Positions 58,229 to 64,000 of a stretch of 64,000 bases of DNA are shown one piece after another. Under the pieces are notes generated by a model that was not told where the DNA came from, searched no databases, and was given only the letters and a program-made list of their open reading frames with translations. This DNA is from an uncultured bacterium (lineage in GTDB: Bacteria > Cyanobacteriota > Vampirovibrionia > Gastranaerophilales > Gastranaerophilaceae). The position numbers and the translations under genes were made by a program. The DNA lies in the NCBI GenBank assembly GCA_902763805.1, contig CACWTN010000001.1, positions 71,069 to 135,068 on the forward strand, given 5' to 3'. Positions within the stretch are counted from its first letter, which is position 1, and each line of letters starts with the position of its first letter.

Positions 58229-58238
58229 AAACAGCACC

Positions 58239-58268
58239 GTGCGCAAGGGTGTACAAACCCTTGCGCAC
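58239..58268. terminator. GC-rich hairpin between convergent genes
   Basis: GTGCGCAAGGGT (58239-58250) and ACCCTTGCGCAC (58257-58268) form a perfect 12-bp stem around GTACAA. No T-run directly follows, so it may be a transcription block or a terminator for either strand. Confidence 0.55.
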
Positions 58269-58298
58269 AGGAGGTTATTTTAATTATTGTTTAGCTGT

Positions 58299-58628
58299 CT
58301 ATAACTGGAAGCTGAATGACCTGTCAATTGCTTTATCGACAGCACCTCTGGTTGATTCAAGTTCTTTTTCAACCATTTGCAGACGGCTCTGATATTCCTG
58401 CATTTGTAAATCCAGTTTCTTTTCCAAAACAGTCAGCTTGTCCCTTCGGGCTTCCATCTGTTTTACGGCAGGATTTTCAGGATCCAAATCATTACCGAGA
58501 GCCATAATCTCATCGGAAGATGCAACCAATTCCATCTTTGCAGATGCAATCCACTGAATCTTTGACTCCAACGAAATCTGGTACGCTGTCAGGTACATCA
58601 TTCTGAAACTTGAGGCAATTAATCCCAT
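58299..58628 (-). CDS. Helical protein of 109 residues, short relative of the 537-residue cluster protein
   Basis: The product is almost entirely alpha-helical. It opens MGLIASSFRMMYLTAYQISLE and ends with a long amphipathic helix finishing AVDKAIDRSFSFQL. Both ends match in pattern the ends of the 60292-61905 protein (MGMAASQARYLALLA..., ...VKDNIEKSFKTF), with the large middle missing. AAGGAATTTTGTC is the ribosome binding site, and it follows the preceding cluster gene after 12 bp. No signal peptide or enzyme motif. It could be a filament subunit, chaperone or export substrate; none of these can be proven. Confidence 0.72.
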   Translation of the reverse strand: MGLIASSFRMMYLTAYQISLESKIQWIASAKMELVASSDEIMALGNDLDPENPAVKQMEARRDKLTVLEKKLDLQMQEYQSRLQMVEKELESTRGAVDKAIDRSFSFQL

Positions 58629-58640
58629 GACAAAATTCCT

Positions 58641-58916
58641 TTATCTTAGTTCGTTCAAGTTTTTTGCCTTCAGGAATGTGTGTTCATTGCTTTCTGCTAT
58701 CAAGCTTTCCATTTTGTGCAACTGGTGCTGATGATAACTAACCCTGTACTTTGCCATTTTCAGCTTTTGGCGAATGGTCATCATTTCCTTCAGGCTTGTG
58801 ATAAGACTAACGGCAAGTTCTTTCAACGGATTTTTGCGTTTGAAAAACGAACGCGCAAAATTCAGAAAGTTCACTAACCTTTTTAGACTTTCTTGTAGTT
58901 CTTCACGCATAAGCAT
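58641..58916 (-). CDS. Basic coiled-coil protein of 91 residues, cluster member
   Basis: A strongly helical, basic product rich in leucine, lysine and histidine (KLKMAKYRVSYHQHQLHKME). AGGAG lies 3 bp before the first ATG and 9 bp before a second in-frame ATG (58910); either may be used. A TATAAT on the minus strand near 58950 suggests a promoter. The next gene follows after 12 bp. Unknown family; size and helical content suit a partner or chaperone of the larger proteins. Confidence 0.65.
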   Translation of the reverse strand: MLMREELQESLKRLVNFLNFARSFFKRKNPLKELAVSLITSLKEMMTIRQKLKMAKYRVSYHQHQLHKMESLIAESNEHTFLKAKNLNELR

Positions 58917-59031
58917 GTACTCCTATGCATTCCAAGCCTACATGTATTATAAAACATGTCGGAACTGATAATTGCTTATTTTCAACTGGTTTTGTTACAA
59001 TTGTTAACAATTTATTCACCTGCTTACAGCA

Positions 59032-59235
59032 TTATTTATTTACCTTAAATACAAATTTGTTTTGCACCGGTGTAACTTCTATTTTATTTATCGGCAAATT
59101 TTTCAAAAACTTTAGCTCATGACGATTGTAATACAGTTGTTCTTTACAAAAATTTACAAGAGATACCACGGTTCTTACCACGGCATTGTCAAAAACTATA
59201 TCAAGCATTGTCCGTATAAAAGTTCTCTTTTGCAT
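59032..59235 (-). CDS. Small basic protein of 67 residues, cluster member
   Basis: A short open frame with helical first half (FDNAVVRTVVSLVNFCKEQ) and a strand-rich end (KIEVTPVQNKFVFKVNK). The ribosome binding site is weak (AAAGAAAT). It lies 44 bp after the Gly/Ser-rich gene in the same direction, so it may be translated from the same message. I cannot name it, and its reality is less sure than that of its neighbours. Confidence 0.5.
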   Translation of the reverse strand: MQKRTFIRTMLDIVFDNAVVRTVVSLVNFCKEQLYYNRHELKFLKNLPINKIEVTPVQNKFVFKVNK

Positions 59236-59279
59236 ATTTCTTTATCTGAGCATAGAGATAAACTCATTTACTCAATTTC

Positions 59280-60140
59280 CTAGCTTCCTAAATCCTGAAT
59301 GTCTTTGCTCTTAGACTCAATATCATCTTTAAGCATTTTTCTTACAACATCACTTTGTGTATCCAGCATCTTACAAACTGTTTCAATATTTGCAACTTTT
59401 TGTGAAAGTATAGTATCGGCATTTGCCACAATATTACTTGAAACGCTCTGATAAGCAGAGAGAGCCGCAGATGTTGTACCCTGCATTAAGTTACCCATAA
59501 CAACCGCAGGTAATCCAAACTCGCCCAAATACGGAGCAGCAGCGGTCATAATACCGCCCCAGCCTGACACTATACCGGCAAGAGGCATAACCCAGTTACT
59601 TGCTCCTATACCGTAGCCGTTTGCAGTACCTATACCGTAAGCAGCTGTGCTTGCTATATCAGCAATACTTCCGATACCTGAAGCAAAACCCGTAGTTTGT
59701 CCGTTAGAAGAACCAAAACCGGTCAGCAAATCTCCGATAGAAGATGCGCCTCCCGTTGTATAACCTTTTCTGTATCCCAGATTAGCAGCATAACCGCTCG
59801 GGAACCCTGAATAATTGCCTAATGTATTTACACCAAACGAAGAATAGCTTCCTTTTGTACTTCCTGTTCCGCCTGTATATTGATTCCAGTATGAAGTTCC
59901 CGGAATATTCATTGCTGTTGTTCCGCCCATTGCAGTCATAAATGCAGACGGAGCAAACAAACTTGCAAGCTGGTATAAAAAACCGCCTGCTGCTTCAAAG
60001 CCGGAGCCTGAACTTCCCGAACCTGCAACCGCTAAATCTCTTAATCTGTCATAAGTTTCATACAGCATTACTTTAGCATCGGAAGAAGCCGAGCCGAATC
60101 TGTTTGCTATTACAAGGTATCCATCGTTTTTGTATGACAT
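59280..60140 (-). CDS. Gly/Ser/Ala-rich protein of 286 residues, cluster member
   Basis: The first 40 residues are helical (DAKVMLYETYDRLRDLAV). The middle 170 residues are low in complexity and rich in G, S, A, T and Y (GSGSSGSGFEAAGG, SSFGVNTLGNYSG). The last 60 are helical (LSAYQSVSSNIVANADTIL, KMLDTQSDVVRKML). There is no signal peptide. Helical ends around a flexible or beta-like glycine-rich centre recall subunits of surface filaments or translocators, but I do not recognise a family. It follows the 537-residue gene by 151 bp. Confidence 0.7.
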   Translation of the reverse strand: MSYKNDGYLVIANRFGSASSDAKVMLYETYDRLRDLAVAGSGSSGSGFEAAGGFLYQLASLFAPSAFMTAMGGTTAMNIPGTSYWNQYTGGTGSTKGSYSSFGVNTLGNYSGFPSGYAANLGYRKGYTTGGASSIGDLLTGFGSSNGQTTGFASGIGSIADIASTAAYGIGTANGYGIGASNWVMPLAGIVSGWGGIMTAAAPYLGEFGLPAVVMGNLMQGTTSAALSAYQSVSSNIVANADTILSQKVANIETVCKMLDTQSDVVRKMLKDDIESKSKDIQDLGS

Positions 60141-60291
60141 TGTTTTCTTAATAAGCCGCTAAGTCACTAATGCAATAAGTTACTGAGAATTTTTTAACTT
60201 TTGTTTTAGATGTCTGCGATCTTATTCCTTTCTTTTTTAGAGTATTTTGTATATTTTTGTGTTTAATTATGCGGCAAGAGCATTAAGCCGA

Positions 60292-61905
60292 TTAACCGCT
60301 AAATGTCTTGAATGATTTCTCAATGTTATCTTTAACAACCTTAGATACCGCTTCAATTTCTGTATTAAGCGCACTTTGTTCGGTATCAAGCTGTTTAAGT
60401 CTGAGTTCAAGGTTTTGGTCTTGTTTTTGTATAATAGATGTTTTCGCGTTTATATCAGAAACCTGTTTATCATACAACGCTCTTTGATAATTGTATTCGC
60501 TCATTGCATCATCATAAGCCAACTCATCTGTCTCAGAAACCGATTTCAAATCATATACAAGAGAATCATCTTCTAATCTCATTGATATAAATCTGCCTGA
60601 CTTATCCTTTTCAATAAGAGCTCTCGTTGTTTTTGTAACAGGTTTTTCCATATCCTGCGCAGCATAATACGGAAGTTTTGCCTGATCATCAATGTGATTT
60701 ATACCGGTTCCGTTAACAATAGAATTATACAAATCATAATATGTTGTATAATATGTCGTACCAACCATTTCAAAAGTATAAATACCACCCTTGTCTTTGT
60801 ATGTTTCTGCTGTATATTCACCTTGAAGTGTATCAAAACACTTTGTAAGCTTGGTTTCAATTTCCTCATCTTTCATATTTGCAATAATCTGAGTAATTGC
60901 CGTTAATTGATTATCGTCTAATGAAGCTAAAGGTGTTAATTTTATGTTACCTATTTTTGTCGGAATGTCATATTTTGCGTATATATCAGCAACCGCGTCA
61001 TACTCCGATTTTGCCTGTATAAATTTGTTGTATGCTTCCTGTACGGCAACGTCCATCTCTTTCATACTTACATAAGAAGCGCCCGGTGGTGATGAAAGCA
61101 CATGATATATCGGCAAGTTCGTTTTTCTGTATTCACCAATCATTGCCTCCAAATCTGTCGCGAATGCAACAGAATCGGTAGCTTCGTTATAATATATCGT
61201 TGAAAAATCAAAGGTATCAGGATCTCCTTCTATTGCTCCATAGTTCATAAGTTTTGACAGATACTCTTTGAGTGTATTTTGATAAGCACCGCAATCATTG
61301 AAATTTTTGTATACATAAGGATTAGCAACACCTTCACAAGTAATAGTGTACTCATTATTATTATGAACACAGGTTGCTTTGGTTATGGTAGAAATATCCT
61401 GATATGTTGATATTTTTCCTGCCTTCTGTTTATTCACCTGATATGCATCAGAAGCCTTATTCATATCCGATTCTTTTTGCTGTCGGTCTATTAATGCCAG
61501 TTGAATTGTCCTTACCTGTTCATCAGGATTAACTGATGGGGTTGGTGCCATTCCTGAGAACTGAACCTGCGGGTCAAGCTTATATTTCTGATAACCTGTG
61601 TATTCTAATGTATCATAATGATATGTAACAGCATAGTTATAACCGTCACTATCTGCTTCAGCCAGTCTGTTCCATTTATCCATGGTGTACTGATTTAACC
61701 CATCTGTAAACACATACGTCTGAATCGTATAATCCGATTTACTCGGGGTTGTCGGAACCTGCAGTCCCATCATCTGATTGAATAAATCTGCAGACTGATT
61801 TGACAGTGCAAGCCTTGATTGGTTAATCTGCTGTCCTTCGTATTCACAATTTGATTTACGTGCAAGAAGTGCTAAATATCTTGCCTGAGAAGCTGCCATA
61901 CCCAT
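60292..61905 (-). CDS. Protein of 537 residues with helical ends and a large middle domain, cluster member
   Basis: AGGAGAGTACCGCA precedes the ATG. The N-terminal 50 residues form a helix with a striking start (MGMAASQARYLALLARKSN, then QQINQSRLALSNQSADLF). The middle, about 60-430, is a mixed domain with strands and tyrosines. The C-terminal 90 residues are a long coiled coil (LELRLKQLDTEQSALNTEIE) ending NIEKSFKTF. No signal peptide or membrane segment. Pairing N- and C-terminal helices around a variable centre is the plan of flagellin-type and type III-secreted proteins, yet the sequence does not match any I know. It is the first gene of the five. Confidence 0.78.
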   Translation of the reverse strand: MGMAASQARYLALLARKSNCEYEGQQINQSRLALSNQSADLFNQMMGLQVPTTPSKSDYTIQTYVFTDGLNQYTMDKWNRLAEADSDGYNYAVTYHYDTLEYTGYQKYKLDPQVQFSGMAPTPSVNPDEQVRTIQLALIDRQQKESDMNKASDAYQVNKQKAGKISTYQDISTITKATCVHNNNEYTITCEGVANPYVYKNFNDCGAYQNTLKEYLSKLMNYGAIEGDPDTFDFSTIYYNEATDSVAFATDLEAMIGEYRKTNLPIYHVLSSPPGASYVSMKEMDVAVQEAYNKFIQAKSEYDAVADIYAKYDIPTKIGNIKLTPLASLDDNQLTAITQIIANMKDEEIETKLTKCFDTLQGEYTAETYKDKGGIYTFEMVGTTYYTTYYDLYNSIVNGTGINHIDDQAKLPYYAAQDMEKPVTKTTRALIEKDKSGRFISMRLEDDSLVYDLKSVSETDELAYDDAMSEYNYQRALYDKQVSDINAKTSIIQKQDQNLELRLKQLDTEQSALNTEIEAVSKVVKDNIEKSFKTFSG

Positions 61906-62280: not shown

Positions 62281-64000
62281 ATGACAATTAGAAAACTTAC
62301 TGTGGCAGCTGCTATTGCCGTAGGTATCGCAACATGCTCATTTAATACAGCACAAGCAGCATGTCCGTGTGAACAGCAGCCTGCTGTCACACAAACACCT
62401 TGTGAGTGTAAAGATTTACCTGTAGTAACGGGTAACGCCTGCCCTTGCGACAACATTCCCGAGCCGACTTGTGGCTGTGATGAAGCTCCTGTCTGCGAAC
62501 CGGATCCTGCGCCATCTTGCGCTTTATGTCCAAGCACAGGAAAAGTTCAGCGTGAAGACATGCGTCAGGTATATTCTTATCCAAACGCTATTTACGGTAC
62601 AAACAATTTTGTCGGAACATCTAAAGATTCTATCTATTCTGCACAGGGCTACGGCTTAAATGTTGCGCCAATAACACGCAACAACGGACTTAATGCAATG
62701 ACAATGGGTTCAACCGTTGCAACAGATGGTTCAATTACAGGTGCAGCATCTAACATTCCGTGCCTGAATGACATACCAAATCATACAGGCGCTCCGATTG
62801 TAAGAGATGAGTCTAAAATGGATGGTGCGGGTTGTCCTGTTCAAATGCATACCGCAAACTCAATTCAGGCAATTAAAAAGACTTTGTCCCCTTTTGATTT
62901 GTCACCGTTCGCAAACCTTCAGGGTATGACAGGTGCGGCAGCAGGAATGTCACAAATGTTCCCTGACGTTCCGTCAAGCCACTGGGCTGCCTGCGAAATC
63001 GATAAACTTGCAATGAATGACGTTGTTGTAGGCTATCCCGACAGACTTTACAAACCGTACAGAAATATTACCAGAGCAGAGTTTGCAACAATGCTTGTAA
63101 AAGGTTTTGACAAGGAAACTTACTCTTGTGCACCTGAAAAATTATTCTCAGATGTCCCAACAAACCACTGGGCAAGCAACGCCATTACGGTTGCTGTTCA
63201 TAACGATTTACTCAAAGGTTATCCTGATGGTAAATTCCTGCCAAACAACAATGTAACCCGCGTTGAAGCATTGTGCGCTTTATCAAAAGGCATTCAGTGC
63301 GACAATATCGATAAGTGCAAAGCTCAGGAAATCTTATCAAAATACTGCGACGGAAAACAAGTTCCTGAATGGGCTCAAATTCCTATAGCAAAAGCTTTGG
63401 ATAAAGGTGCGTTAAATAACTCTCCAAATCCTGACAAAATCAATCCGTTTGCAGAAGCAACAAGGGCAGACATAGCAGCAATGCTTCAAAACATCCGTGT
63501 TGCAGCAGGTATCGACAAAAATCCTGTAACCGCAAACAACGATTGCCCGACTTGTCCTGTTGACAAGAAAGCCTTCATAGAAGAAGAACAACTTGTTCAA
63601 ATCCCTACACTCAAGCTCAAATTCAAAGACCAGATTAACGCTAAATCTGCTCACGTTGGTCAGAGATTTGCCGCAAAAACAATGGAAGACGTAACCATTA
63701 ACGGTCAGTTATATCCTATCGGTTCAAATGTTTACGGTAAAGTTGTTGAAGTCGTAAGACCGTCAGGCTGTCAGAAGGGTGCTCTTAAACTTGCATTCCA
63801 GGAAATCGAGAATTGCGGTCACAGAGCAACTCTGCCAAAACAAATTCTCAATGCTGACATCAGCAAATCAAACACACCTAACATAATATCGAGAATTGTA
63901 ACCGCTCCGCTTACATGGTCAGGTCAAATGCTTGGTATCGTAGGCCGTACGACAGGCGGTATGATTTCAAGCCTCGGTAACGGACTTGAAAATATCACAG
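62281..64000 (+). CDS. SLH-domain envelope protein with cysteine-rich N-terminus (partial, runs off the window)
   Basis: The frame opens at 62281 and is still open at the window end, 573 residues so far. A signal peptide (about 1-27, ending TAQAA) is followed by a stretch with 11 cysteines in residues 28-83 (CPCEQQ, CECKD, CPCDN, CGCDE). Three SLH domains follow at about 227-280, 289-335 and 360-405 (FPDVPSSHWAACEIDKL, FSDVPTNHWASNAI, TRADIAAML). After a linker, residues 430-573 form another domain with LYPIGSNVYGKVVEVVRP. SLH domains anchor proteins to pyruvylated wall polysaccharide, made by CsaB (10381). Cyanobacterial outer-membrane proteins have a similar SLH start, but no barrel is visible before the edge. 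The strong AAAGGAGG ribosome binding site implies high expression. Confidence 0.9.
   Translation, partial: MTIRKLTVAAAIAVGIATCSFNTAQAACPCEQQPAVTQTPCECKDLPVVTGNACPCDNIPEPTCGCDEAPVCEPDPAPSCALCPSTGKVQREDMRQVYSYPNAIYGTNNFVGTSKDSIYSAQGYGLNVAPITRNNGLNAMTMGSTVATDGSITGAASNIPCLNDIPNHTGAPIVRDESKMDGAGCPVQMHTANSIQAIKKTLSPFDLSPFANLQGMTGAAAGMSQMFPDVPSSHWAACEIDKLAMNDVVVGYPDRLYKPYRNITRAEFATMLVKGFDKETYSCAPEKLFSDVPTNHWASNAITVAVHNDLLKGYPDGKFLPNNNVTRVEALCALSKGIQCDNIDKCKAQEILSKYCDGKQVPEWAQIPIAKALDKGALNNSPNPDKINPFAEATRADIAAMLQNIRVAAGIDKNPVTANNDCPTCPVDKKAFIEEEQLVQIPTLKLKFKDQINAKSAHVGQRFAAKTMEDVTINGQLYPIGSNVYGKVVEVVRPSGCQKGALKLAFQEIENCGHRATLPKQILNADISKSNTPNIISRIVTAPLTWSGQMLGIVGRTTGGMISSLGNGLENIT

Follow-up and report, generated by a model that had tools for sequence, protein, structure and literature searches.

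The axial proteins of the bacterial flagellum (flagellin, FliD, FlgK/L, FlgE and the rod proteins) combine paired, conserved N- and C-terminal helices with an inserted variable domain, and the needle (SctF) and inner-rod proteins of type III secretion systems (T3SS) are helical hairpins of about 100 residues. In the needle hairpins an Asp-Pro turn lies between the two helices. Non-flagellar T3SS are defined as lacking FliE, FlgB and FlgC, and the one of the Myxococcales, which is derived from the flagellum, was first interpreted as a relic in decay until its conservation was demonstrated (Abby and Rocha, 2012, PMC3459982). Flagellar genes were reported by Di Rienzi et al. (2013, PMC3787301), with two flhA genes in ACD20; in MEL.A1 filament, cap, hook junction and L/P rings were missing, which was read as ongoing reduction. 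Soo et al. (2014, PMC4040986) took the subset found in most Gastranaerophilales for the loss of a functional flagellum. Here we describe a stretch of 64,000 nucleotides from the genome of a member of the Gastranaerophilales, gut-dwelling relatives of the cyanobacteria (G000:C1:71069-135068, called the window; G, C, L and f numbers are our handles for genomes, contigs, loci and families), in which five consecutive open reading frames (ORFs) on the minus strand, positions 58299-61905, form a cluster (genes 1 to 5, Table 1). We give a probability of roughly 60% to the reading that this cluster is an operon which provides a second, flagellum-derived type III system of Gastranaerophilales and related Vampirovibrionia with exported proteins and with axial parts of a needle, rod or filament type.

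Judged from their sequences, two type III systems are encoded in this genome, the flagellum (system 1) and a second, flagellum-derived system (system 2). Genomes of the order contain two full-length FlhA-type genes and a third gene for a soluble FlhA-C homologue. In the window's genome system 1 comprises fliP-Q-R-flhB-flhA1 on C6 (L052) and fliF1-fliG1-fliH1-fliI1 on C1 (L162), and system 2 comprises fliE-fliF2-346aa-fliH-flhA2 on C10 (L053) and fliMN-fliO-fliP2-fliQ2-fliR2 on C7 (L159). An earlier note on the window had reported no export machinery; this is correct for the window and wrong for the genome, since the machinery lies elsewhere. The systems were scored against the flagellar and injectisome equivalog cut-offs of NCBIfam. 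FlhA1 (849.8 bits) passes the flagellar cut-off of 772.1 whereas FlhA2 (704.5 bits) does not, and the same holds for FliF1 (255.4) and FliF2 (111.9) at a cut-off of 129.75; FliG1 scores above its flagellar cut-off, and FliP2 with 216.6 bits against 217.45 is a near miss by less than one bit. Neither the flagellar nor the injectisome equivalog cut-off is reached by FlhA2, FliF2, FliP2 or FliR2, with system 2 scores of 592 of 692 bits for SctV, 57.6 of 162 for SctJ and 186.8 of 208.6 for SctR. FliP2 passes the broader EscR/YscR/HrcR subfamily model PRK12797 (209.6 against 179). The FliE of the system 2 operon scores 65 bits against a flagellar cut-off of 22.4, and with FliE in its operon system 2 falls outside the FliE-free part of the injectisome definition.

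A recognisable FliG was not found in system 2. At its place, between fliF2 and fliH, lies a gene for a 346-aa protein (L053:10567-11607) that has no family match, including none to FliG; homology to FliG was rejected after an hhalign comparison with FliG1 gave 3.5%. Three of eight members show a weak match to MgtE_N, which has a FliG-related fold, so the protein may still be a remote relative of FliG. In a tree of 41 FlhA/SctV proteins the FlhA1 clade groups with a bacterial flagellar FlhA, and the FlhA2 proteins of f1, f9, f10 and f12 fall into a separate clade (100/99), on the flagellar side of the tree but with an exact root that is uncertain because of long branches. System 2 resembles the Myxococcales system as a flagellum-derived exporter without FliG, but differs from it in having FliE, a ring protein of FliF length and its own FlhA clade, whereas the Myxococcales system is without FliE and FlgBC (PMC3459982). 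The soluble protein (488 aa; L055:8902-10368, G000:C7:36901-38367) consists of the FlhA cytoplasmic domain only (FHIPEP positions 321-655); its gene is present in nearly all genomes of the order and adjoins Skp/BamA-like genes.

FliP, FliF and flagellin were checked in 41 genomes. All 15 flagellated genomes contain two FliP, two FliF and 3-12 flagellins. In 20 genomes of family f1 one FliP and one FliF were found, both in the system 2 score class, and FlhA2 and the soluble FlhA-C protein are the only FlhA forms. Flagellin was detected in none of the 20, and one relic was seen in the system-2-only genome G223. Gene 2, the single-copy marker of the cluster, is present in all 20 of these flagellin-less genomes. 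Of 240 genomes from the class, 158 have both FHIPEP and gene 2, 28 have FHIPEP alone, none has gene 2 alone and 54 have neither; in family f1, where the FlhA types were split by score, 103 genomes have FlhA2 without FlhA1 and about 102 of them have gene 2. These counts were tallied by hand from tables and, as the genomes are related, do not represent independent events. Flagellated relatives therefore carry both sets of genes and non-flagellated ones keep the second, so that the 'partial flagella' look like the second system and not like decay. The sets described as 'incomplete flagella' in Gastranaerophilus phascolarctocola and MEL.A1 (PMC3787301, PMC4040986), which do not include filament, cap, hook junction and L/P rings, are probably the same genes, and we infer that the published flagellar subsets correspond to system 2; in place of flagellum loss, our data suggest a second system.

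The five-gene unit is an ancient operon that is conserved across the order Gastranaerophilales. Gene 2 was found in one copy each in 50 of 57 relatives, with an identity of 81-95% within the genus and mostly 41-55% in other families, and gene 5, also found in 50 of the 57, is spread in the same way. The order of the cluster genes is unchanged in families f2, f3, f4, f5 (where the contig stops after gene 2) and f7, and in f6 the adjacency is limited to the first two genes. A scan of the collection gave 390 places encoding gene 2 relatives, the best 80 of which were read for synteny. Among the 59 of these 80 loci with enough flank, genes 1, 2, 4 and 5 stand in conserved order and strand in 57 and gene 3 was detected in 52. 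That the small genes are real is evident from the recurrence of all five, identically arranged, in other families of Gastranaerophilales. Gene 3 has no ORF at its position in L141 and is missing from some flagellin-less genomes, and is thus dispensable. Outside the order, gene 2 occurs in families f9, f14 and f15 of the class, where the unit is shortened.

Linkage of the cluster to export genes was analysed in 53 genomes without FlhA1 for which the position of flhA2 was listed. Gene 2 and flhA2 share a contig in 27 of them and lie on different contigs in the others. In all 27, with contigs of up to 1.03 Mb and about seven genera represented, the distance is 7-14 kb. At L141, L142, L146 and L147 the order gene1-gene2-gene4-gene5 is followed by a few housekeeping genes and then by fliE-fliF2-346aa-fliH-flhA2. 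In G069 (family f9) about 5 kb separate the cluster from fliE, and a flgG-type rod gene is close by; at L235 the cluster abuts a flgG-flgG-flgB-flgC operon, and at L190 such an operon is about 4 kb away.

Genes 1 and 5 encode homologous proteins. Profile-profile comparison with hhalign, using short forms of gene 1, gave a probability of 98.7% and a P value of 2.6e-16 over 105 columns, and the alignment takes in the N-terminal MG...R...L block. The earlier note had observed that the 537- and 109-residue products share their start and end, and had named unrelated predicted folds as the result that would speak against this; the answer comes from sequence profiles, not from two models, and it is that the proteins are homologous. 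In gene 5 the turn of the hairpin reads DPENPAVKQ, and the acidic Asp-Pro turn is TTLDPDSDDAVKL in gene 1 of f9 and NDLDPENPAVKQ in gene 5; the likeness to the turn of the needle hairpins is a lead only. In the f9 and f15 loci that were read out gene 1 is a bare hairpin of 109 aa, and the ancestral form of both genes seems to have been a hairpin of 109-125 aa with such an acidic turn. Members of the window's family carry some 200-600 additional residues at the turn of gene 1, an inserted centre not present in sister families. Over 39 orthologues the mean conservation of gene 1 is 0.90 for residues 1-50, 0.48 for 51-460 and 0.81 for 461-537, so both ends are conserved and the centre is fast-evolving. 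No usable Pfam match was obtained for the variable centres of ten members, and a known enzyme was discarded as an explanation for them. The gene 1 family is multi-copy, with five loci in the window's genome and often at least 14 matches in flagellin-less genomes, where a single gene may yield two matches. The paralogues in the window's genome are scattered (L047:8394-10976, 860 aa; L048:8762-10357, 531 aa; L049:8812-9993, 393 aa; L050:7059-8567, 502 aa), and the 531-aa one adjoins a flagellin gene.

An AlphaFold2 (AF2) model of gene 1 reached a mean predicted local distance difference test score (pLDDT) of 89.7 and a predicted template modelling score of 0.65. It places a helix at residues 2-47 and another at 461-535 (pLDDT mostly 82-91) around a folded alpha/beta centre, and thereby pairs the end helices around a variable domain, the arrangement known from flagellar axial proteins. 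Together with the conservation profile, this agrees with the view taken in the earlier note of terminal helices around a variable centre. The first Foldseek matches of the model were flagellar cap-filament complexes, none of them significant (E 0.08 or worse), and 22 of the 50 matches listed by VIA-align were flagellar cap, junction, filament, hook or rod proteins, aligned over both end helices together, e.g., 106 residues at 1.8 A to a filament. For the fold of the centre no significant structural match was found, and gene 1 did not match Flagellin_N/C or the rod families at E up to 1. As the axial-like match stays below significance, it is supported that gene 1 works like an axial protein, not that it is a member of these families. 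With flagellar axial proteins the gene 1 family also shares the lack of a Sec signal and the presence of several paralogues, and it differs from them in having no sequence match and in being kept in genomes without flagellin. Likewise, hairpins of the gene 5 type resemble the needle and inner-rod proteins in size and shape, but the hairpins of the cluster have no Pfam profile match to these among the families listed, are longer, and in gene 1 are expanded by domain insertion.

The view of the earlier note that the five genes, at the coordinates it had given, cannot be assigned to any family is upheld: none of the five proteins reached a curated cut-off of Pfam or NCBIfam, and PHROGs and PADLOC gave no convincing match for any of them and no support for a phage origin or a defence system, which were dropped as candidates. 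Weak library matches of the cluster proteins are coiled coils. Homology to needle or translocator proteins found no support, as profiles against PDB and Pfam gave coiled-coil noise only; SctF is absent among the best 25 of 42 families matched by 15 gene 5 members (E up to 10), and also from the match table of the window's own gene 5 protein. A strongly hydrophobic N-terminus of the Sec type is absent from the cluster products, with gene 3 as a weak exception. Sequence and composition of gene 2 agree with the helical ends and the Gly/Ser/Ala-rich centre noticed earlier, and a mildly hydrophobic segment lies at about 183-215; its AF2 model (pLDDT 35.6) is unusable. The products of genes 3 and 4 are basic as had been noted, with isoelectric points of 10.0 and 10.2, and no homology between them was detected. 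Usual T3SS chaperones are acidic. The strongly basic character of both products leaves the earlier guess that they are chaperones unsupported.

Since the cluster travels with system 2 and persists where the flagellum has been lost, its products are probably components or substrates of a secretion system not described before. In the mechanism we propose, the hairpin proteins encoded by genes 1 and 5 would pass the FliPQR/FlhA2 gate in unfolded form, and their constant end helices would pack side by side into a tube, like the subunits of flagellin, rod and needle. The variable centres of gene 1 and its paralogues, threaded into the hairpin, would be displayed outside. Gene 2, with its Gly/Ala-rich, mildly hydrophobic middle, would be the best candidate for a cap, tip or pore-like partner, and genes 3 and 4 may be helpers. 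For the earlier proposal of a surface or secreted structure of this lineage, the lineage specificity and the tie to an export machinery hold, and a location at the surface is what we infer.

Several observations weigh against an operon that serves system 2. Families f10 and f12 have system 2 and no detectable cluster, and two genomes (G143, G249) lack FliF2, a full FlhA2 and gene 2 and yet show 13-14 gene 1 family matches. An assembly gap is possible in these two because FliP2 remains, and for the same reason, one gap being able to remove both, their joint absence was not counted as co-loss. In the window's genus the cluster mostly lies away from system 2, and it is linked to export genes about as often as chance would give (4 of about 50 loci). 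The structural matches of gene 1 have Z values of at most 9.3, under the limit the tool sets for long helices, and no cluster protein matches a flagellar or injectisome component in sequence (Pfam, NCBIfam and profile searches). Within the flagellin-less family f12, L166 (G073) has flgF/G-flgB-flgC-fliE-fliF in one run and an FlhA2-type protein, without the cluster; this may represent an older stage, or a system 2 that works with different partners. That the cluster serves the ordinary flagellum, e.g., as a sheath, minor filament or hook component, would fit the window's genus, all members of which are flagellated with 5-13 flagellins, and G007, where the cluster lies near fliPQR-flhB-flhA1; this idea is highly improbable and largely refuted by the retention of the cluster in f1 genomes without flhA1, including the 20 checked for flagellin, all of which lack it.

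We regard it as rather unlikely that the products are machine parts of system 2 which stay inside or in the envelope, such as inner-rod-like hairpins, adaptors, C-ring or sorting parts. The ancestral gene 1, at only 109 aa, matches FliE-like parts in size, genes 2, 4 and 5 are single-copy and resemble machine parts, and small basic proteins could sit at the membrane, but 5 to at least 14 gene 1 family members per genome, with folded centres of varied length, better suit display or secretion. The cluster could also have nothing to do with export: it would then be a coiled-coil system of the cytoskeleton or envelope in this class, tied to system 2 by no more than common ancestry and gene neighbourhood. 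Coiled-coil hairpins are common, the 27 linked genomes are not independent as the linkage is inherited within one subfamily, and f10 and f12 do without the cluster; against this stand the strict absence of gene 2 from all 54 genomes without FHIPEP, the neighbourhoods with system 2 or rod genes in separate families, and the strong conservation of both absolute termini of gene 1, so that we consider it quite improbable. Beyond the supply of parts to system 2, we suggest tentatively, at slightly less than even odds, that type III export has a third branch in the Vampirovibrionia, distinct from both flagellum and injectisome, whose filament or secreted subunits form a family of their own, with constant hairpin and variable centre, that expanded in gut species after flagellum loss.

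Type III export is known, and the system 2 branch with its companion operon appears new to the literature searched, which leaves out most subscription journals and in which the flagellum is the only type III system we found described for these bacteria. If the proposal is true, common gut bacteria whose flagella were taken to be broken possess instead a conserved secretion machine from a branch not yet described, along with many candidate surface or secreted proteins that are now annotated as hypothetical. It would be the second surviving flagellum-derived exporter between flagellum and injectisome, after the Myxococcales system, and the evolution of type III secretion would become testable in a new phylum.

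Table 1. Positions of the cluster genes and the adjoining terminator in the window.
Feature	Position	Strand	Description	Evidence
Gene 1, 537 aa	60292..61905	-	Helical hairpin with folded variable centre, multi-copy family	ORF, paralogues, AF2, conservation
Gene 2, 286 aa	59280..60140	-	Single-copy cluster marker, helical ends, Gly/Ser/Ala-rich centre	Alignment, composition
Gene 3, 67 aa	59032..59235	-	Basic, poorly conserved	Syntenic ORFs in other families
Gene 4, 91 aa	58641..58916	-	Basic, helical	Cross-family alignment, synteny
Gene 5, 109 aa	58299..58628	-	Helical hairpin, gene 1 homologue without middle	Alignment, hhalign
Strong intrinsic terminator closing the operon	58237..58270	-	14 pairs, 9 G-C, T-rich tail	

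Divergent from the cluster, the gene of a 657-aa secreted SLH-domain protein starts on the plus strand (62281-64000) and continues beyond the end of the window; it was dropped as a component of the system because such a neighbour lies within 5 kb of the cluster in only 6 of the 59 loci. Several members of the window's genus contain open frames of 1361-2085 aa with a flagellin N-terminus (G033:C16:11447, G003:C74:16077, G026:C1:20021). Three public records labelled 'uncultured Acinetobacter' (L171, L181, L206) carry the Gastranaerophilales cluster and are apparently mislabelled.

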